Of a stretch of 52,163 nucleotides of DNA, positions 4,436-15,054 are shown piece after piece (positions within the stretch are counted from its first letter, which is position 1; each line of letters starts with the position of its first letter). Both the position numbers and the translations under genes were made by a program. The notes under the pieces were generated by a model. The model did no database searches, was not told where the DNA came from, and saw nothing but the letters and a program-made list of their open reading frames with translations. Source of the DNA: Sedimentisphaerales bacterium (GTDB lineage: Bacteria > Planctomycetota > Phycisphaerae > Sedimentisphaerales > UBA12454); assembly GCA_016930635.1 (NCBI GenBank), contig JAFGGI010000032.1, positions 1 to 52,163 on the forward strand, written 5' to 3'.

Positions 4436-6478
4436 ATGCAGACAGAAGCTAAAAAAGCCGGATATGTTTGTCTGACAGCACTTATTTTAAGTGCGATATT
4501 TTCTTTCAGCAGCCTAATATTGTACAAGTTAACCGGGTCCTTTGCATTAGGAGCCCTTGGTTTTCAAATGATAGCAGGGGTGCTGATCTGGACTATTCTC
4601 GCTATTCAATTCTACCAGCGATTTCTTGCCGATCGCGAGAAACTCGATATGGAACAACTGGCACTTGGCAGCGGTGATACCATATTCGAATCACAAAGGA
4701 GTCATACCGAACTTTTTGCAGTTGCCCAGAACAGGTTAAAAATCTTTGAAAAATGGATATTGCCTATTTTTTCTCTTTTTATAGCTATCTATCAGATTTC
4801 TGTAGGCGGAGTACTGATAAGTTATGTTTTTCAGGGGCTGTCCAGAGCCCAGATGAACCATCTTCTTCTCGGCGCAGTACTGATGGTTTCCATCGCTTTT
4901 TTAAGTTTTCTTTTTTCACTTTATACCATAGGTCTGTCAAGCCTTCAGCAGTCGCGGCCTCTAAGAGCGGGGGGCAGTTATCTTCTGTCTATATCGATAC
5001 TGTCTTTTGCCTGTGCAGCAGGTCTTGCATTTGCTCAGTTTAAGGTGCCGGTCATTTTAGCGGTCTTCAACTGGGTTGTGCCGATAGTTATTTTTATTCT
5101 CGGCTTAGAGACAGTTTTTAATTTTGTTCTCGACAGATACCGCCCGAGATTGGCAGGTCAATACAGCAGTGCTGCCTTTGACAGCAGATTACTGGCGATA
5201 ATAGCATCTCCTAAAAGTATCCTGCAAACAGCAGCAAGTACTATTGACTATCAATTCGGTTTTAAGGTTTCTCAGACCTGGTTTTATAAAATAATAGCAC
5301 AGGCGATAGTACCATTGATAATTGTTTCGGCGGCGATACTTTACTTTTCAAGCTGTATTGTAATTATTGGACCCGATTCACAGGCGATAATCGAGAAGTT
5401 CGGTTCTGCATGTAATTCGCAGGGCCAAGTACGTCTCATAGGGCCTGGGCTTACAACGAAACTTCCCTGGCCTTTCGGTATAGTCAGGCAATTTCCATCA
5501 AAGCAGATCCAGGAAATAAATATAGGTTATGTGCCTGAGGAAGACCCTATCAAACAAAGGATGCCTTTGCTTTGGGGCATGGAGCATTATAAGGAGGAAT
5601 ACAACCTTCTGGTCGGCACCGAGGGCATAAACTCACAGGAAGAGGGGGCTGTTCCTGTAAGTATTATAAGGGCAGCTATTCCTGTGCAGTATCGTGTAGT
5701 GGACTTATATAAATATCTTTACAATTATGCCGATACCCGGAAGGTGCTTGAGTCTTTGTGTTATCGCGAGGTGATAAAATTTACTGCCAGTGCCCGGATT
5801 GAACCTGAATCGGAAAGCGGCACTGACCAGGAGAGTCTGCTTGGTGCTGGGAGGGAAAAAGCTTCTGCAGAACTTATGAAAATTATCCAGAGCGAATCAG
5901 ACAAGATGGGCCTTGGTGTTAAGATAGTCTTTATGGGTCTGGCAGGTTTTCATCCACCTCCTGATGTAGCGGAAAATTTCCAGGCAGTTATAGGTGCCGT
6001 TCAGAAGAAACAGGCTACTATTCTGGGGGCCATTGCCGAGAGAGACAGAGTTTTTACGACCAATGTCGGTTCTGTCAAGCAGGCCGAGGGTTTATACGAT
6101 CTTGCGGATAAATATATGCGGGCCGAACAGGCCGGGGACCAGGAGCAGAAAGATAAAATCAAGTTAGAGCTTGATAGTGCTTTTGTACAGGCTAAAGGCC
6201 GGTTATTTGCCGAGCTTCGTCAGGCAAAAAGTTATGCTTATGAGAGGGCAACCTTAGCTGAGGCTACCGGCAAGAGATTTAGTCAGCAATTACAGGCATA
6301 TAAAGCTGCCAGGCAAATTTACTCACATGAATTGAAGATGAGTATGCTTGAAGAGTCGCTTAAGAACGTCAGAAAATACGTTGTAGCGGCCGAAGGCGAC
6401 ACACAGGTAACGATAATAGACCTTCAGGAAAAGCTTGTTCCCAGCCTGTATGATATGGAGCCGGTAAATTTAGAGTAA
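4436..6478 (+). CDS. SPFH/Band 7 (HflK-like) protein fused to a multi-helix membrane region
   Basis: This 680-residue protein has two parts. Residues 1 to about 310 contain seven hydrophobic segments (about 12-33, 38-60, 100-125, 138-163, 177-198, 205-228 and 288-312) and resemble no domain I recognise. Residues 320-650 are an SPFH/Band 7 domain beginning 'VIIGPDSQAIIEKFGSA' and continuing 'GPGLTTKLPWPFGIVRQFPSKQIQEINIGY', followed by an Ala/Glu/Lys-rich coiled coil. Ordinary HflK has a single N-terminal anchor and about 400 residues, so this is an unusual fusion. It opens a tight run of 11 genes and is followed 44 bp later by an HflC-like gene, suggesting a hetero-oligomeric membrane scaffold that controls quality-control proteases such as FtsH. 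The start is ATG 4436 with AGGA at 4421-4424. Confidence 0.8.
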   Translation: MQTEAKKAGYVCLTALILSAIFSFSSLILYKLTGSFALGALGFQMIAGVLIWTILAIQFYQRFLADREKLDMEQLALGSGDTIFESQRSHTELFAVAQNRLKIFEKWILPIFSLFIAIYQISVGGVLISYVFQGLSRAQMNHLLLGAVLMVSIAFLSFLFSLYTIGLSSLQQSRPLRAGGSYLLSISILSFACAAGLAFAQFKVPVILAVFNWVVPIVIFILGLETVFNFVLDRYRPRLAGQYSSAAFDSRLLAIIASPKSILQTAASTIDYQFGFKVSQTWFYKIIAQAIVPLIIVSAAILYFSSCIVIIGPDSQAIIEKFGSACNSQGQVRLIGPGLTTKLPWPFGIVRQFPSKQIQEINIGYVPEEDPIKQRMPLLWGMEHYKEEYNLLVGTEGINSQEEGAVPVSIIRAAIPVQYRVVDLYKYLYNYADTRKVLESLCYREVIKFTASARIEPESESGTDQESLLGAGREKASAELMKIIQSESDKMGLGVKIVFMGLAGFHPPPDVAENFQAVIGAVQKKQATILGAIAERDRVFTTNVGSVKQAEGLYDLADKYMRAEQAGDQEQKDKIKLELDSAFVQAKGRLFAELRQAKSYAYERATLAEATGKRFSQQLQAYKAARQIYSHELKMSMLEESLKNVRKYVVAAEGDTQVTIIDLQEKLVPSLYDMEPVNLE

Positions 6479-6522: not shown

Positions 6523-7413
6523 ATGAAAAATATAACGGTTATAATTCTTGTTGTTCTGATTATCGTGGTGATGCTGCTTTATCTTATCTCGTTCCAGGTA
6601 AGCCAGACGGAGTCAGCGTTAATTTTGACATTTGGCAAGCCTACAAGACAGATTACTGAGCCTGGTTTCTATTTGAAATGGCCTTTGCCTATTCAGAAGT
6701 ATGTTCCGTTCGATTCAAGACCGAAGCTTTTCGAGGGTGTTGAAGAGGAGACAACAACAAAAGGCGGCGAACCGATAATTGTCAGGAGTTACATTATATG
6801 GCGTATTGGAGAGCCCCAGAAATTCCGTGAGGCTGTAAGAGATGAGGCGGGTGCTGAAAAGCTTCTCAGAAGCCGGCTTCGCGATGCTCAGAACAATGTG
6901 ATAGGCAAACACTATTTCAGTGAGTTTGTAAATACCGACCGTACACAGATAAAATTCAGTGATATTGAGGGTGAGATGATTGCTGTTATGTCCGGTCCTG
7001 TAAAAGAGGCTTACGGCATAGAGATTAAATCTGTCGGGTTAAAGATGCTTAAGGTTAATGATAAAGTTACCCAGGATGTTTTTGCAAGAATGAAGGCGGA
7101 CAGGAACCGCAAGACAGAAGCTACACTTGCTCAAGGCAATGCGGAAGCGATGCGGATAAAGAGTGATGCTGACTCGAAGATCACAGAACTTCTGGCTGCA
7201 GCGGAGGCGAGGGCAAAGGCGATACGCGGCAGCGGTGATGCTGAAGCAGCTAAATATTACAAGATGTTAGAGGCTGATCCTGAATTTGCGATGTTCCTTC
7301 GTGAAATAGAGACGCTGAAGAAGACTCTTAAGGACCGTGCGACAGTAATTTTGCCTGCTGATGCACAGCCGTTCAGGCTTCTTAAGGAAGTGCCGCAGAT
7401 ACAGCCGAAGTAA
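6523..7413 (+). CDS. hflC: HflC-like SPFH protein, protease modulator
   Basis: This 296-residue protein has one N-terminal anchor ('VIILVVLIIVVMLLYLISF') followed directly by the Band 7 start 'QVSQTESALILTFGKPTRQITEPGFYLKWPLPIQKYVPFDSR', very close to HflC. The C-terminal half holds the helix 'AEATLAQGNAEAMRIKSDADSKITELLAAAEARAKAIRGSGDAEAAKYY', diagnostic of HflC. In the known family HflK and HflC assemble into a large membrane cage around FtsH and limit its proteolysis. Here it lies between two other SPFH genes, 44 bp after the first and 18 bp before the third, all on one transcript. Length is normal for HflC (about 300). Confidence 0.88.
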   Translation: MKNITVIILVVLIIVVMLLYLISFQVSQTESALILTFGKPTRQITEPGFYLKWPLPIQKYVPFDSRPKLFEGVEEETTTKGGEPIIVRSYIIWRIGEPQKFREAVRDEAGAEKLLRSRLRDAQNNVIGKHYFSEFVNTDRTQIKFSDIEGEMIAVMSGPVKEAYGIEIKSVGLKMLKVNDKVTQDVFARMKADRNRKTEATLAQGNAEAMRIKSDADSKITELLAAAEARAKAIRGSGDAEAAKYYKMLEADPEFAMFLREIETLKKTLKDRATVILPADAQPFRLLKEVPQIQPK

Positions 7414-7431: not shown

Positions 7432-8700
7432 ATGACCGCGATTCATAACCATAACCATAATCATAATCATGAACACGAGCATGTAGATTCGCAGGCAGAC
7501 ATACCGATTGAAGAATTGGATGCAGGCAGTAAGAGTCTTGCCGATGCTCTTCGGATCAGCTTTTTTGTTCTTAAGTTCATAATGATTGCGCTTGTGATAT
7601 TCTTTTTCGGCTCTGGTGTTTTTACGGTTGGTCCTGATGAGCGGGCCATGGTTTTAAGGTTCGGGAAGATACGCGGTGATACGAGTGATAAGCGGATACT
7701 GACTCCCGGCCTGCATTGGGCAGTTCCTTCTCCTGTGGATGAGATAATAAGATTTCCAGGCCGAAATACAGTTGAGCGGGTGACGCTGGATGCGTTTTGG
7801 TATGATGAAACCAAGAAGAGGCCCGGCCTGTCGCTTGATCCTGTTGTGGACGGTTATTGCCTTACGCGTAATGATTCGGTGGCGGACTTAAGGACCGGTA
7901 ATGATTACAACATAGTTCATTCAAGGTGGCTTTTGACGTATAGGATTTCTGATTGTGAGTTGTTCCTGAAAAATATATATGTCAAAGACGCACCGGCCGG
8001 TCAGAATTATATAGATGTCATAGGCGAGAGTGTCGAGCCGATGTTGAGAGCCCTGGCCTGCGATGCGATCATAACCACAATGGTCCAGTTCAGTATTGAT
8101 GAAGCTATAAAAAGCGATGCTGATATAAGCCGGCAGGCAAGCAAAGTTCTGCAGGCGAAGCTGGACGATATAGAAAGCGGTATAGAAATTGATTCAATGC
8201 AGATCACGGCGGTTACCTGGCCCCGGCAGGTTGAAGATGCCTTTATTGCATCGATCAAGGCGAGCAATGACGCGGACAGGATAATTCGCGAGGCAAAAGG
8301 ATATGCTGAGAGCAAAATCAATGAAGCCGGCGGAGCGGAGATAATTAATGCGTTTTCTAATCCTGATGTTACAGAGCCGCAGATGGAGTATTACTGGGCG
8401 AATGCTTCCGGCCAGGTTCGCCAGACCATATCGGAAGCGAAAGCCTATCGTACAAAAGTGGTTGAATCGGCCAAAGCCAACGCCGACTATCTTGTAAAAC
8501 TTCTGCCTCAGTATCGTAAGAGACCCCGTCTTGTGCTTGAACGGATATATTATGATGCGATGGAAGAGATCCTGGGCAATACCGATGAGAACATAATTGC
8601 TCAGCCCGGTTCAGATGTGAAAAATAAGGAATTCAGAATTATGATAAACAGGGACCCTGCTTTGAAGAAGGGCGGCCAGAAAAAAGTAACCGAGAAATAA
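7432..8700 (+). CDS. hflK: HflK-like SPFH protein with histidine-rich N-terminus
   Basis: This 422-residue protein has a cytosolic N-terminal tail, one anchor ('FFVLKFIMIALVIFFFGSGVF', about residues 42-62) and an SPFH domain ('VGPDERAMVLRFGKI...PGLHWAVPSPVDEIIRFPGR') with an HflK-type coiled-coil end. Residues 5-17 alternate His with Asn/Glu, giving seven His in 13 residues, encoded by a hexanucleotide iteration around 7444-7482. His-rich tails of this type usually bind Zn, Ni or Co. The next gene, 24 bp away, is a P1B metal ATPase without its usual N-terminal metal-binding domain. The ATG at 7432 follows CAGGAATAATT. Confidence 0.85.
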   Translation: MTAIHNHNHNHNHEHEHVDSQADIPIEELDAGSKSLADALRISFFVLKFIMIALVIFFFGSGVFTVGPDERAMVLRFGKIRGDTSDKRILTPGLHWAVPSPVDEIIRFPGRNTVERVTLDAFWYDETKKRPGLSLDPVVDGYCLTRNDSVADLRTGNDYNIVHSRWLLTYRISDCELFLKNIYVKDAPAGQNYIDVIGESVEPMLRALACDAIITTMVQFSIDEAIKSDADISRQASKVLQAKLDDIESGIEIDSMQITAVTWPRQVEDAFIASIKASNDADRIIREAKGYAESKINEAGGAEIINAFSNPDVTEPQMEYYWANASGQVRQTISEAKAYRTKVVESAKANADYLVKLLPQYRKRPRLVLERIYYDAMEEILGNTDENIIAQPGSDVKNKEFRIMINRDPALKKGGQKKVTEK

Positions 8701-8724
8701 TTAAGATCTTAAGAAACAGGAATT

Positions 8725-10668
8725 ATGGTACATAAAGCATTGAATTTAACGGCACATGAGGTTGATGCGGAAAAAACGCACCGCAAGCAGGTGACGGTCA
8801 GTATGGCCTTGATAGGTACGCTTCTTGGCGGGACGCTTTTGCTGAATAGTTTAATTTCTCCGATTTTCTACAGCAGTGAGATAAAGGATATTCTCGCGAT
8901 GCTTGCAGCGATACTTCTTGGTGCTCCGGTTGTTATCCATTCGATAAAGTCTGTCATACAGGGTCATATGCATATGGATGAGCTGGTAGCGTTGGCGATA
9001 GTTGCTGCCTTTGCTACGGGCGATTATGTTGCAGCGAGTGTTGTGGCGTTTTTCCTTTTGTTAAGCGAGCTTGTTGAAACAAGGACCGCGTTGGGTGCGA
9101 GAGCGGCAATTGAGTCGCTGGTTAAACTTACTCCGACTAAAGCTTGTCTGATTGGCAGTGACGGCCGTGAAGAGGAGATAACCGCCGCCCGATTGAGTGC
9201 AGGTGATGTGATCCGTGTAAAGCCGGGTGATAATATTGCAGCCGATGGTGAAGTTGTACAGGGTTTGAGTTCTGTAAATGAGGCAACAATAACGGGTGAA
9301 TCTTTACCTGCTGATAAGGTGCCTGGCATGCAGGTTTTTGCAGGCACGAGTAATCTGACCGGTGTTCTTGACATAAAGGTGACAAGGGCCGGCGAGGATA
9401 CAACGCTTGGTAAAGTTCAGTCTCTTATTCTCCAGGCTGAGCATACGAAAATACCTATAATGCGGATTATCGACAAGTATGTGAAGTGGTATATACCGAC
9501 AATATTGATGATATCCGGAATAATATGGTTCTTCACAGAAGATGTTGAACGTGCTATCGGTGCGATAGTTGTTTCCTGTCCATGCGCACTGATACTTGCT
9601 ACTCCAACCGCTATGGTAGCGGCGTTGTCGGCTTCGGCAAGACTGGGTATTTTGATAAAAAAGGTTGCCGATCTGGAACTTGCCGGCAGGATTACGGCGA
9701 TGGTATTTGATAAGACCGGAACGCTTACAACCGGCCAGCTTAATGTAACTAAACTCACACCTGCTGAGGGTGTCGAGGCGGCACAGCTTTTGAAATTGGC
9801 CGCCTCTGCAGAACAGATGAGTAAACATCCTGCTGCAAGGGCGTTGCAGGCGGTTGCCAGGGAAGCGAATCTGGTTCTTACTGTTGCCCGGGATTTTGCT
9901 GAAACGCCTGGTAAGGGTGTCTGTGCTGCTGTTGACAATGTCGAGGTGATGGTAGGCAGAGATACATTTCTTTCTGAGCAGGGGATTAATACTTCGGTTG
10001 TTGCTGATCCTGCACTGCATGAGGAGCAGGGGTTCAGTACTTTGTATGTTGCCGCAGATAAGAAATGTATCGGCTGGATAGGTTTGCAGGACAAGACCAG
10101 GGCCGAGGCCAGAGATTCTGTTAATGATCTGATGGATGCGGGCGTAAAGCGTATCACGATGCTTACAGGCGACAGGGAAGAGGTTGCAAAAAGAGTTGCC
10201 GGTGAACTCGGCTGCACTGATGTAAAAGCCAAATGTCTTCCACAGGACAAGCTGGCAATAGTGGAGCAGATGAAAGCAGACGGTCATGTTGTAGCAGTAG
10301 TTGGTGACGGAATTAATGATGCACCTGCGCTTGCCAGCGGTAATCTTGGAATAGCGATGGGAGCTGCCGGCAGTGATGTTGCAATCAACTCTGCCTCGAT
10401 TGCGCTGATGAATAACGATTTGAAGAGGCTGCCGTTTTTGATCAAGTTATCCCGTAAGACAGGCAGGGTCATTAATGAGAACCTGCTTTTCGGCATTCTC
10501 TTTATAATTCTCGGAGTTGGAGCATCTGCAGCAGGCTGGCTGCCTTTGATTTATGCAGCTGTATTGCATTTTTCAGGTTCTCTTGTTGTGATTTTCAATA
10601 GTGCCAGGCTGGTACGCTTTGGTGAAGAGCTTCAGCCGCACGCACCGGCAGTCAGTACAGCGATATAA
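8725..10668 (+). CDS. P1B-type heavy-metal translocating ATPase
   Basis: This 647-residue protein is a P-type ATPase of the metal-transporting class. Seen motifs: 'ITGES' actuator loop, transmembrane metal motif C285-P-C287 ('VSCPCALILATPTA'), phosphorylation site D329 in 'DKTGT', 'MLTGD' and 'GDGINDAPAL' in the nucleotide and hinge region, and 'KHPAARAL', the variant of the HP locus. There is no HMA domain and no Cys-rich N-terminus; membrane helices start near residue 25. The last helix reads 'LHFSGSLVVIFN' (H615), not the Asp-x-Gly of Zn/Cd pumps nor the Met/Ser set of Cu pumps; it is closer to the His-x-x-Gly-Ser/Thr set of P1B-4 pumps, which normally carry SPC rather than CPC. The transported metal therefore cannot be assigned. 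Start ATG 8725 after AAACAGGAATT. Confidence 0.9.
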   Translation: MVHKALNLTAHEVDAEKTHRKQVTVSMALIGTLLGGTLLLNSLISPIFYSSEIKDILAMLAAILLGAPVVIHSIKSVIQGHMHMDELVALAIVAAFATGDYVAASVVAFFLLLSELVETRTALGARAAIESLVKLTPTKACLIGSDGREEEITAARLSAGDVIRVKPGDNIAADGEVVQGLSSVNEATITGESLPADKVPGMQVFAGTSNLTGVLDIKVTRAGEDTTLGKVQSLILQAEHTKIPIMRIIDKYVKWYIPTILMISGIIWFFTEDVERAIGAIVVSCPCALILATPTAMVAALSASARLGILIKKVADLELAGRITAMVFDKTGTLTTGQLNVTKLTPAEGVEAAQLLKLAASAEQMSKHPAARALQAVAREANLVLTVARDFAETPGKGVCAAVDNVEVMVGRDTFLSEQGINTSVVADPALHEEQGFSTLYVAADKKCIGWIGLQDKTRAEARDSVNDLMDAGVKRITMLTGDREEVAKRVAGELGCTDVKAKCLPQDKLAIVEQMKADGHVVAVVGDGINDAPALASGNLGIAMGAAGSDVAINSASIALMNNDLKRLPFLIKLSRKTGRVINENLLFGILFIILGVGASAAGWLPLIYAAVLHFSGSLVVIFNSARLVRFGEELQPHAPAVSTAI

Positions 10669-10698: not shown

Positions 10699-11904
10699 GT
10701 GGTTGGCACAAATGGTCAGTTTGTAGTTGAAACGTTTTCGCTGACGAAGATTTTTACCGACTGGTGGGGCCGGAGCCGAGTTGTTGCGGTTGAGGATTTA
10801 AATCTTAAAGTCAGGCAGAACGAAGTGTTCGGGCTTCTTGGCCCCAATGGCTCGGGTAAGACTACGGTTTTAAAAATGCTGCTTGGGCTGCTTTGGCCGA
10901 CCAAAGGCAGGGCAATAATTTTAAATAATGATATCAGGAATCCGAAGATAAGCGCTAAAGTAGGTTTTTTACCTGAAGAATCTTACTTGTATCCATATCT
11001 TAACGCTCGTGAAACGCTTGATTTTTACGGCAGACTCTTTGGCTTGAATTCGAAATTGCGAAGGGCACGAATTGATGCTCTGCTGGATATGGTAGGTTTG
11101 GCCGGTATGGCCAGCAGGCCTATAGGTACGTTTTCAAAAGGTATGGCCCGCAGAATAGGTCTTGCCCAGGCATTGATAAACGACCCGGAACTTTTGATAC
11201 TGGATGAGCCGACAAGCGGACTGGACCCTATTGGCACGAGGCAAATGAAGGATCTTATAGTTGAACTTGCAAAGCGCGGCAAAAGTGTGCTTCTATGCAG
11301 TCATCTGCTCGCGGATGCCGAGGAAGTTTGTGATAGAATAGCGATACTCTATGGCGGACATATGCAAAGGCTGGGCAGTGTTGATGAGTTGCTTAAGCAG
11401 GCTAATAAAAGGCAGATTACAACAGATGTTCTAAGTGCTGATGTAATCGATAAGATCAGGCATATCATAGAAAGTCAGGGCAGTGAATTTAATATGACAG
11501 AGCCAATGCAGAGGCTGGAATCTTTCTTTATAGATATAATCAGACAGGCTCAGCAGGAAAAGAGGCCGACCAGTGGAGCCATAAATAGACTGGATGCTAC
11601 AGTTGCAGAAAGAACTGCTGCTGTGGCAAATGTGCTTGATAAGCTTATTAATGCTAAAGTTGAATCCGGCGGTCCGGCAGAGCCGCAAAGGAAAGTAGAA
11701 ACGGTGAGGTTGAAGCCTAATGAAGATGTCCTGAGCCAGCTTACCGAAGATACGCAGCAGGATGCGATGTCTCCGTCCCAAACTGCAGAGCCCCGGCCCG
11801 ACCAGCAGGCCCGGGAACAGATTGAAAAGGAGGTTCTTGATGAGCTTGTAGAGGGACAGGATTCTGCAGAGGGGCAAGAGTCAGGGGATGATAAAAATGG
11901 GTAG
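10699..11904 (+). CDS. ABC transporter ATP-binding protein with long C-terminal extension
   Basis: The 401-residue product has a complete ABC domain in residues 5-225: Walker A 'GPNGSGKTTVLK', signature 'FSKGMARRIGLAQAL', Walker B 'LLILDEPTSGLDP' and the switch His in 'LLCSHLLAD'. This is the form seen in ABC-2 exporters. Residues after about 230 form a 170-residue acidic, Gln/Glu-rich, low-complexity tail without a recognised domain, much longer than the usual short regulatory tail. The start is GTG 10699 with GAAAGG at 10688-10693. Its 3' end overlaps the permease gene by 17 bases, so the two form an exporter. The unlinked permease at 3287 could use the same ATPase. Substrate unknown. Confidence 0.9.
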   Translation: MVGTNGQFVVETFSLTKIFTDWWGRSRVVAVEDLNLKVRQNEVFGLLGPNGSGKTTVLKMLLGLLWPTKGRAIILNNDIRNPKISAKVGFLPEESYLYPYLNARETLDFYGRLFGLNSKLRRARIDALLDMVGLAGMASRPIGTFSKGMARRIGLAQALINDPELLILDEPTSGLDPIGTRQMKDLIVELAKRGKSVLLCSHLLADAEEVCDRIAILYGGHMQRLGSVDELLKQANKRQITTDVLSADVIDKIRHIIESQGSEFNMTEPMQRLESFFIDIIRQAQQEKRPTSGAINRLDATVAERTAAVANVLDKLINAKVESGGPAEPQRKVETVRLKPNEDVLSQLTEDTQQDAMSPSQTAEPRPDQQAREQIEKEVLDELVEGQDSAEGQESGDDKNG

Positions 11905-13270
11905 AGTCTGGGCTGTTGCCAGAAATACTTTTATCTCTTCAATGAGAATGAAGACCGCCATAGTATTCATATTATTACTGATGATACTTTTGCCGGTCCT
12001 GTACCTGACGACCACTGGTGATGGTACCGCTATAGGACGTATTCAGAGTTTTATAAGTTATGGACTCGGCCTGACCGCGTTTCTTATTTCAATTCTTACT
12101 ATTATTGTGTCGTGTTATACGCTTAGCAGTGATATAAAACACAAACAGATTTATACAGTTGTTACAAAACCTGTTAAGCGGTTCGAATTAATTATCGGCA
12201 AAATTCTTGGTGTTGTTTTGCTTGATTTGCTGCTCTTGGTTGTATTTTCATCGGCAATTTACGCGTGTACTTTATATATGCCGCGGCTTTCCAAGGTGGC
12301 CGATACAGATATTAAGCGTCTTGATGATGAATTTTATACCGCAAGAGCCAGCTTGAAAGTTGATTTTGATGAATTAGCCATAGAAAAAATTGTATTTGAT
12401 GAATATGAAGAGCTTGTAAAAACAGGCCGACTCGACAAGTCTCGCAGCCGAGAGGACATACTTGATGAATTACGTAAGACAGAAAAGTACAGTAGAAATT
12501 CTGCAGAACCCGGCGGACAGGTGATATGGGAATTCCAGAATATTAAACCTTTCGATGTGAATGAGAGTATTTTTGTGCGTTTTAAGTATAACGCTTCTCA
12601 AATGGCGACGGGCGATATTGCTTATGGCAACTGGTATGTAGGAGATTATCGTCAGATAAAATATGGTCAGGGCTGGACAGAGACACCTATTTATAATGTT
12701 CCTCGTAAAGATACGTGTGGTTCGCAGCACGAATTTGAGGTTCCTGCCGATGCAGTAGCTAAAGATGGTTATCTTGCAGTGGTGTTTTACAATGAGCCGA
12801 GGAATGCCACTACAGTGATGTTTTCTCCTGAAGACGGTTTTGAGGTGCTTTATAAGGCGGGTAGTTTTAGAAACAATTTCCTTCGTGCTCAGGTAGTTAT
12901 ATTTGTAAGATTAGTATTTCTGGCTGTTCTTGGTGTTTCTTTGTCCGTATGGCTGGGGTTTCCGGTGGCCATTCTTTGCAGTTTGACAATATTTTTCATG
13001 GGTATGATTAACGGCTTTGTTGTAGGCTCCTTTGGTTATCTGGGGCAGAATATGATAGTATTTTATAAGTATGTAATGAAACCCTTGATATGGCTGCTGC
13101 CCAGATTCGACGGCAATTATAATATTAACGGGTACATAATCGATGCCAAGCTGATAAGCAATAGATTCCTGGTTTTTGCAATTGGCGCTCTCGTGATAAA
13201 ATCTTTGGTTTTAATGCTGGCAGGGTTTTTGATTTTTACAAAGCGTGAGATAGCAAAAGTAATTATTTAA
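11888..13270 (+). CDS. ABC-2 type transporter permease
   Basis: This 460-residue protein begins 'MGRVWAVARNTFISSMRMKTAIVFILLLM' like other ABC-2 permeases. There are helices near residues 20-42, 52-75 and 100-125, a large non-membrane insert (about 130-330) and four hydrophobic segments from about 340 to the end. The coupling loop 'DIKHKQIYTVVTKPVKRFELIIGKILGV' matches that of the permease at 3287. The large central insert probably lies outside the cytoplasm and contains a beta-rich segment. It overlaps the ATPase gene by 17 bases and is followed 8 bases later by the next gene, so all three are co-translated. Confidence 0.88.
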   Translation: MIKMGRVWAVARNTFISSMRMKTAIVFILLLMILLPVLYLTTTGDGTAIGRIQSFISYGLGLTAFLISILTIIVSCYTLSSDIKHKQIYTVVTKPVKRFELIIGKILGVVLLDLLLLVVFSSAIYACTLYMPRLSKVADTDIKRLDDEFYTARASLKVDFDELAIEKIVFDEYEELVKTGRLDKSRSREDILDELRKTEKYSRNSAEPGGQVIWEFQNIKPFDVNESIFVRFKYNASQMATGDIAYGNWYVGDYRQIKYGQGWTETPIYNVPRKDTCGSQHEFEVPADAVAKDGYLAVVFYNEPRNATTVMFSPEDGFEVLYKAGSFRNNFLRAQVVIFVRLVFLAVLGVSLSVWLGFPVAILCSLTIFFMGMINGFVVGSFGYLGQNMIVFYKYVMKPLIWLLPRFDGNYNINGYIIDAKLISNRFLVFAIGALVIKSLVLMLAGFLIFTKREIAKVII

Positions 13271-13278
13271 ATATCATT

Positions 13279-15054
13279 ATGTATGTTAGAACCTTTATTC
13301 TTTGTTTTTTATGTATAGTCATTGCCGGCGGGTTATTCTTTGCGGGTTCCTGTCAGCTTGATGAGATAAACAGACAGCGAAGTGAAATGAGGCTGGTGGT
13401 AAAGGAGCCGCTTGAAAATGCTCCTCCTTCTCTGGCTTTTGTGACAATAGCTCTCGGGTCTTTTCGCGGTCTTATAGTAGACATACTTTGGCTGAGAGCT
13501 ACCCAGCTGAAAGAAGACGGCAAGTTTTTTGATGCCAAGCAGCTTGCAGAGTGGATAACACTTCTTCAGCCGAGGTTTGCGTCAGTATGGGATTTTCATG
13601 CGTGGAATATGGCTTATAATATTTCAGTTGAGATTCCGGCTACCAGGCCTCAGGAGCGATGGCAATGGGTAAGAAACGGCTATGAATTACTGCGTGACAA
13701 AGGCATAGAAAAAAACCCTCATAGTGTAATTCTTTATCGGGCACTTGGATGGATATTCCAGCATAAGATAGCCGGGGAAACCGATGATTGCCATAAGTAT
13801 TATAAGCTTCAGCTTTATAATGCCATGAAAGTTCTGGTTGATCCGCAAACGCAGGAGCATTATAAAGCCCTTGCAGATTCACCTAAAGAGCCTGGTGACA
13901 TTTTTCAAAAACCTGAGGTAGCAAAATTTTTAAATGAACTTGCCTCGGCAGATAGTTCCTTTTCGCGATCTGAGGAGCTTGTCGATAATTATCTTTCTCT
14001 CAGGCAGCAGCCATCCCGTTTTTCTGAAGAAGCCTTTGCGGTGATAGATGATTTTCGCGGAACAAAGGCGCTTGAAGAATTTGATACTTTTGCAAAAGCA
14101 TATCAGTTGCGGCACAAATGGAAACTTGAGCCTGAGCTTATGGTGGAGTTGAATGAAAAGTATGGTCCAATCGACTATAAAGACCCGAACAAACTGTTGC
14201 CGCTGGACTGGACGCTGCCGGACACTCATTCTATTTATTGGGCAGCTCTTGGCCTGCAAAAAATGCCTCGGGAAACGGGCTCAGTTGATGAGCTTAATAC
14301 CGACAGAATAGTTTTTCAGGGACTTCAGCATCTTTATTATCGCGGCAAGATGGTTCTTTATACTTCGAAGATACCATCCAAGAGTGACCCGTGCGATATA
14401 ATAGAACGTCAAAGTGTGTTCTTGTTTCCGGATTTGAGAATGTTCGGCAGATATGACCAGGCACTGAGAGAGTTGATAAAGAAGTATGACAGATTGGGTG
14501 GTAATGTAGCTGCTGTCAAAAGTGCTCATAAAAATATGCTTAAACGTGCGGTGTTTTTGTTTTATCAGGCCGGTCATATGGGAAAGGCCACAGAAATTTA
14601 TAATGTTTTACGAAAGGAATATCCGGAGGATGAAGACATTCACGCCTCGCTTACGGATTATGTAAGAAAAAGATTTATTCTTCAATGTGAAACAAGCGGC
14701 ATTAGTGATGCACGAGAGATGATCACGCTTATGCTGCGGGAAGCTTATTATCATTATGCTGTGGGAAACGATGATGATGCTTTTGGCAGAGAATGGATGG
14801 CTATGGAGATATATGATAATTATCAGGAAGGTCTTAGAGTTGATGGGGCTGACAGGGCAGTTCTGCCTGATTTCGATGTGCTCAAATATATAGGTTTGAT
14901 AGGTTTTTTGGGTGACGCCAGATATCCTGATTATATACGTGAAAATATTCTCAGCCGTATACAGGTCGAAAGGCCTGAACTCTATAAAAAGCTTGAGCAG
15001 CAGCATGAGAGTTTTATGGAGGAAATGGGGAAACAGGAAAGCATGCAGCAATGA
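13279..15054 (+). CDS. Large membrane-anchored protein, probably TPR-like, unknown function
   Basis: I do not recognise a named family. The 591-residue product starts with a signal anchor ('TFILCFLCIVIAGGLFFAGSC', Cys near residue 25) that could also be read as a lipobox-like sequence. The rest is helical and rich in aromatic residues, with phrases such as 'ASVWDFHAWNMAYNISVEIP', 'RWQWVRNGYELLRDKGIEKNPHSVILYRALGWIFQHK' and 'AGHMGKATEIYNVLRKEYPEDEDIH', which look like degenerate tetratricopeptide repeats. It follows the ABC permease by 8 bp and overlaps the helicase gene by 4 bp. Its position suggests a periplasmic partner of the ABC exporter; that is inference. Confidence 0.6.
   Translation: MYVRTFILCFLCIVIAGGLFFAGSCQLDEINRQRSEMRLVVKEPLENAPPSLAFVTIALGSFRGLIVDILWLRATQLKEDGKFFDAKQLAEWITLLQPRFASVWDFHAWNMAYNISVEIPATRPQERWQWVRNGYELLRDKGIEKNPHSVILYRALGWIFQHKIAGETDDCHKYYKLQLYNAMKVLVDPQTQEHYKALADSPKEPGDIFQKPEVAKFLNELASADSSFSRSEELVDNYLSLRQQPSRFSEEAFAVIDDFRGTKALEEFDTFAKAYQLRHKWKLEPELMVELNEKYGPIDYKDPNKLLPLDWTLPDTHSIYWAALGLQKMPRETGSVDELNTDRIVFQGLQHLYYRGKMVLYTSKIPSKSDPCDIIERQSVFLFPDLRMFGRYDQALRELIKKYDRLGGNVAAVKSAHKNMLKRAVFLFYQAGHMGKATEIYNVLRKEYPEDEDIHASLTDYVRKRFILQCETSGISDAREMITLMLREAYYHYAVGNDDDAFGREWMAMEIYDNYQEGLRVDGADRAVLPDFDVLKYIGLIGFLGDARYPDYIRENILSRIQVERPELYKKLEQQHESFMEEMGKQESMQQ

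Follow-up and report, generated by a model that had tools for sequence, protein, structure and literature searches.

A histidine-tailed HflK-like protein beside a P1B ATPase: a candidate SPFH-scaffolded metal-efflux platform in Sedimentisphaerales

The window, a stretch of 52,163 nucleotides from a Sedimentisphaerales bacterium of the Planctomycetota (assembly GCA_016930635.1, contig JAFGGI010000032.1, forward strand), carries genes for three SPFH proteins followed by one for a heavy-metal ATPase. Reading 5′ to 3′, the order is giant SPFH, HflC-like, HflK-like, P1B ATPase, ABC ATPase and permease, of which the first four constitute a single operon unit with the following features (positions are those of the window):

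4436..6478, + strand: giant SPFH protein, 680 aa, Band_7 at 310-530; plasmid units have it in the equal position
6523..7413, + strand: HflC-like SPFH protein, 296 aa, Band_7 6.2e-22, TIGR01932 122.2 bits against a cut-off of 134.4
7432..8700, + strand: HflK-like SPFH protein, 422 aa, Band_7 9.5e-17, TIGR01933 126.8 bits, HflK/C fold matches
7444..7482, + strand: His tract of the HflK-like protein, residues 5-17, seven alternating His, by direct reading
7522..7611, + strand: predicted HflK transmembrane helix, residues 31-60, from the model
8725..10668, + strand: P1B-type ATPase, 647 aa, without an HMA domain (TIGR01525, motifs, model)
8725..8790, + strand: ATPase N-tail, residues 1-22, 3 His; most order relatives have MAHxHLHxK...HTHGKQ
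8971..8973, + strand: ATPase His83 in GHMHMDEL, before a membrane helix; His in 116/117 order ATPases
9577..9585, + strand: CPC motif 285-287 of the membrane metal site, present in 117/117 order ATPases
10567..10599, + strand: ATPase last-helix motif H615...N625 (HxxGS x5 N); H and N in 117/117 order ATPases

On the 3′ side of the unit, positions 10699-15054 hold the ABC ATPase, the permease and a 591-aa protein without a Pfam or NCBIfam match. No metalloregulator was seen among the window's ORFs neighbouring the unit, and no paper on the unit was found among open-licence PMC papers.

The HflK-like gene (7432-8700) encodes MTAIHNHNHNHNHEHEHVDS..., its product beginning MTAIHNHNHNHNHEHEH, with His at residues 5, 7, 9, 11, 13, 15 and 17; direct reading confirmed the seven alternating His at residues 5-17 reported in the initial annotation of this DNA. 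Although the protein falls below the curated cut-off of TIGR01933, the FtsH modulator HflK equivalog (126.8 vs 159.4 bits), it is HflK-like by domain and fold, the best structural matches of its model being HflK/C chains (PDB 7vhq, 9cz2 and 7wi3). Residues 1-23 of the model have pLDDT below 50 and a long helix spans residues 31-60; the N-terminal tail is accordingly predicted to be disordered. HflK crosses the membrane once, by an N-terminal helix, and its SPFH domain is periplasmic (PMC12005517), which predicts a cytoplasmic position for the tail. The source genome also has an FtsH gene, on a different contig.

The adjacent ORF (8725-10668) scores 542.1 bits against TIGR01525, above the cut-off of 346.25 bits, and carries D329KTGT as well as C285 and C287, identifying it as a heavy-metal P1B ATPase. 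That this pump lacks an HMA domain and a Cys-rich tail, as had also been claimed, was borne out: Pfam returned no HMA domain in it, its AlphaFold model has a membrane helix from residue 15 and no folded N-terminal domain, and its tails contain three His and no Cys at the N-terminus and one His and no Cys at the C-terminus. The N-terminus of P1B pumps faces the cytoplasm, and most order relatives carry there the short His motif MAHxHLHxK, which is weakened in the window's family. Within the source genome, no further P-type ATPase was found by PF00122, nor any HMA domain by the HMA family.

The motifs of the pump match neither P1B-2 nor P1B-4. According to PMC10800456, P1B-2 (ZntA) combines CPC with an Asp in the last helix, and P1B-4 (CoaT) combines SPC with HEGGT(X)5N. 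The window pump has CPC, but H615 stands where we place the last-helix Asp of P1B-2; its HxxGS(X)5N spacing fits P1B-4, but with CPC instead of SPC. CtpC, the partner of PacL1, is described in PMC9374683 as CPC plus HN; the window shares the CPC and reads HF, while distant unit relatives and the proteobacterial unit ATPases read HN in the last helix. Within the explanation that we prefer, the pump is a candidate P1B6-like ATPase, CtpC having been compared by its published motif description. In a structural comparison with VIA-align, the top match was a copper P1B ATPase (Z 35.9, rmsd 5.9, 619 aligned), with 7qbz in third place (Z 30.5, rmsd 10.5, 580 aligned); the fold therefore does not reveal the metal.

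From 150 matching genomes of the order we took 138 HflK loci, omitting 12 (partial or weak matches and the G377 region); locus L202 was also omitted because its start ran into HflC. Most genomes compared are metagenome bins, and relatives that carry a name belong to the Planctomycetota, chiefly as bins labelled Phycisphaerae, Phycisphaerales or Sedimentisphaerales. The ATPase lies directly 3′ of HflK on the same strand in every readable order locus (131/131; median gap 52 bases), the remaining 7 of the 138 stopping at a contig edge. Scoring a tail as His-rich when at least 4 His fall in 15 residues, we counted 58 such HflK tails among 174 unit loci (45 of the 138 in the order, 13 of the 36 elsewhere), with starts set by rule (first ATG past the upstream gene) so that some tails may be mis-started. 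By the same measure, none of 16 canonical HflKs of the phylum, which have no ATPase neighbour, is His-rich (Fisher p 0.003), and the His tail is restricted to the ATPase-linked kind of HflK. When plain ORF starts were used and the first 50 residues scanned, N-termini with at least 4 His in 15 were found in 51/178 HflK-type proteins and 55/145 ATPases, and in none of the giant SPFH (0/165) or HflC (0/172) proteins. Since only 5 of 864 other ORFs of the same loci have such N-termini, the His tail is not a product of chance.

The comparison of orthologues with and without the ATPase neighbour, which the initial annotation had proposed, thus separates the two kinds of HflK; yet 48 of the 131 linked order HflKs have no His at all, so the tail is optional and not required. 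The observation named there as counting against its reading, HflK beside the ATPase without His, therefore holds in part, and one case, G242, pairs a His tail with an ATPase that is not linked. His content of HflK tails ranges from 0 to 27, two or more Cys also occur in 16 of 138 order tails, and gain and loss of the tail amounts to 20 parsimony changes on 117 tips vs 33.5 in shuffles. Several individual loci deserve mention. In G185, whose HflK is His-tailed, no orthologous ATPase was found, the SPFH genes lying close to a contig end; L174 and L175 (genomes G386 and G385) combine a His/Cys-rich ATPase C-terminus with an HflK tail containing CCC. Seven loci of other lineages (L201, L203, L205, L207, L209, L211 and L218) have the ATPase ~7.5 kb upstream of HflK, and their HflK tails are among the longest, with 13-23 His.

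The tract had further been described as a hexanucleotide iteration able to change length by slippage. The first part stands to a degree: CATAAC and CATAAT each occur twice in the tract, but CATGAA, CACGAG and CAT follow, and exact tandem copies number at most 2. The second part does not, as adjacent His codons are identical in 231 of 418 cases vs 237.9 in shuffles. Across the 58 tails, exact hexamer copies number 2 or fewer in 57 and three in one, and spacer residues vary (D, G, E, N) while His persists. With so few exact copies, and His codons no more alike than shuffled ones, slippage was rejected as the origin of the tail.

An exchange of ligands between the HflK and ATPase tails was also considered and set aside. 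Across the order, the rank correlation is -0.27 (p 0.004, 117 loci) and a Fisher test on counts split at 4 ligands gives p 0.0004; independent contrasts give r -0.04, PGLS gives p 0.31-0.68, and simulation gives P 0.011-0.05 with thresholds picked post hoc. A trade-off is not seen by PGLS or contrasts and is seen weakly in the post hoc simulation.

The HflK tail does track the metal site of the pump, in a comparison conceived after inspecting the ATPase tree and hence post hoc. Of 22 loci outside the order with a CPC or TPC pump, 13 carry His-rich tails on HflK and 9 do not, against 0 of 17 loci with CPS, CPG, CPL, CPT, CPV or VPA; among the loci compared, the tail is therefore seen on HflK only beside pumps that keep the second Cys of the membrane site. 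The association gives a Fisher value of 7.8e-5; when the one trait or the other was simulated along the ATPase tree, P was 0.0012 and 0/5000. These counts leave out L230 (motif uncovered) and L262 and L263 (HflK tail unclear), and L213 has no ATPase. Within the order the comparison is powerless because all 117 pumps compared are CPC. In four genomes of a single genus the SPFH genes are kept without a linked ATPase; HflK there is not His-rich in its tail, and the nearest ATPase lacks both CPC and the last-helix His. Additional loci agree: among those with CPC, the HflK tail of L383 is His/Cys-rich, the ATPase tails of L385, L387 and L419 are His- or Cys-rich, and L386 combines 3 His in HflK with some Cys in the ATPase, and the CPS loci L414 and L417 have no such tails (L382, L404, L408 and L409 are incompletely readable, and L384 and L416 duplicate loci already counted). 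In the ATPases of loci L248-L251 (G172, G002, G095 and G034), all of one genus, VPA replaces CPC and Q replaces the last-helix His; these pumps have lost their customary metal ligands.

Searching plasmids with the ATPase of the window uncovered an equivalent set of four genes in Klebsiella aerogenes, Rhizobium, Paraburkholderia and Burkholderia, and ten plasmid records hold HflK relatives at at least 41% identity to the Klebsiella HflK. All nine records examined have giant SPFH, HflC, HflK and ATPase in that order. Their His-rich tails lie on other subunits, on HflC in 8/9 and on the ATPase in 8/9, with at least one in 9/9 and none on HflK (0/9). Unit ATPases from both phyla cluster in the ATPase tree with support 0.796, in a group that also includes the three unlinked ATPases of the genus described above that keeps its SPFH genes without a linked ATPase. 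The entire four-gene unit of L371 (4442-10168) lies close to a Tn3-family transposase on a conjugative plasmid of Klebsiella aerogenes; E. coli genomes gave no near match to this unit.

By analogy with the PacL-CtpC effluxosomes of Mycobacterium tuberculosis, we consider it fairly probable that the window encodes an SPFH-scaffolded metal-efflux platform, with the HflK tail as an auxiliary metal-capture arm. The three SPFH proteins would form a membrane assembly that holds a P1B (P1B6-like) ATPase, and the disordered cytoplasmic N-tail of HflK would provide many weak binding sites for soft or borderline divalent ions, raising the local ion concentration near the entry of a pump without an HMA domain. 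Zn2+ or Cd2+ would be the most likely ions, with Ni2+, Co2+ or Cu binding as possible as that of Zn2+. The tail would be an auxiliary and tunable part, which lineages may gain or lose and may place on HflK, HflC or the ATPase. The earlier suggestion that the tail serves as a metal-capture device of an ATPase-linked SPFH scaffold is thereby retained in part: its restriction to the unit, its tracking of CPC, its disorder in the model and its cytoplasmic side by homology all speak for it, and a transfer from the pump is unsupported.

The likeness to the mycobacterial system, as described in PMC9374683 and PMC13043812, lies in a membrane scaffold gene beside a P1B ATPase, a cytoplasmic zinc-binding His/Asp motif, a CPC + HN ATPase and the auxiliary nature of that motif: PacL1 is a scaffold with a zinc-binding cytoplasmic DLHDHDH that becomes necessary only when zinc is high (PMC9374683). 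PacL, however, is a small DUF1490 protein with Glu/Ala repeats and not an SPFH protein, its foci form without flotillin, and CtpC has an N-terminal MBD, whereas the window pump has no HMA domain and its presumed scaffold consists of three SPFH proteins. The PF07371 (DUF1490) profile had 0 matches in the source genome, and control genomes likewise gave none. With the HflK/HflC-FtsH complex (PMC12005517; PDB 7vhq, 9cz2 and 7wi3), the unit shares the fold, the single N-terminal membrane helix and the SPFH domain, but it adds a third, giant SPFH protein, and the canonical HflKs of the phylum have neither His tail nor ATPase neighbour. HvHMA1, an HMA1-type P1B ATPase, resembles many unit relatives in its His-rich pump N-tail; it has SPC and HEGG (PMC3498361), whereas the unit has CPC and HxxGS or HN, and the unit's tail may sit on a different subunit.

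Other readings of the tail were weighed against the same evidence. That it is a metal sensor, altering HflK/C assembly or the control of protease or pump stability with no metal handed to the pump, draws on the interaction of canonical HflK/C with FtsH (PMC12005517), on the FtsH gene elsewhere in the genome and on a PacL1 scaffold role separable from its metal motif (PMC9374683). We regard this as unlikely, because the tail tracks the CPC of the pump and pumps themselves bear such tails, both of which agree better with capture close to the pump. His-rich tails bind metals in many proteins, and their wide variation here, from 0 to 27 His, would suit a passive membrane buffer or store unrelated to pump flux; the limitation of the tail to ATPase-linked HflK and its dependence on CPC make this quite improbable.

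Frequent gain and loss, together with disorder in the model, could equally be expected of a neutral low-complexity product of repeat slippage, but with no slippage mark, His kept while spacers vary, a low background among other ORFs and the link to CPC, we give such an origin little credence. Least credible of all is the view of the initial annotation that the pump lost an HMA domain once present in its ancestors and that HflK took over the role of this domain. The pump does have no HMA domain, and in family f1, with a His-rich HflK in 9/11 loci, the ATPase N-tail His motif is weakened; against this, HMA is absent from all 27 unit ATPases scanned, with or without a His tail, and from the 4 plasmid unit ATPases scanned, so that no loss event is seen, and PGLS finds no trade-off. 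Going beyond the metal-efflux platform proposed for the window, an SPFH ring or cage might corral P1B pumps across phyla, its cytoplasmic rim lined with many interchangeable His-rich arms borne by HflK, HflC or the pump, so that the arm would belong to the assembly as a whole rather than to a single protein; we hold this wider proposal only tentatively.

A conserved operon in which three bacterial SPFH proteins accompany one metal pump, and whose tails follow its metal site, offers a direct, testable cargo for an SPFH scaffold. The related four-gene sets with tails on other subunits point to a little-known kind of metal-export platform, and suggest that such platforms, known in mycobacteria, may have arisen elsewhere with a different scaffold.
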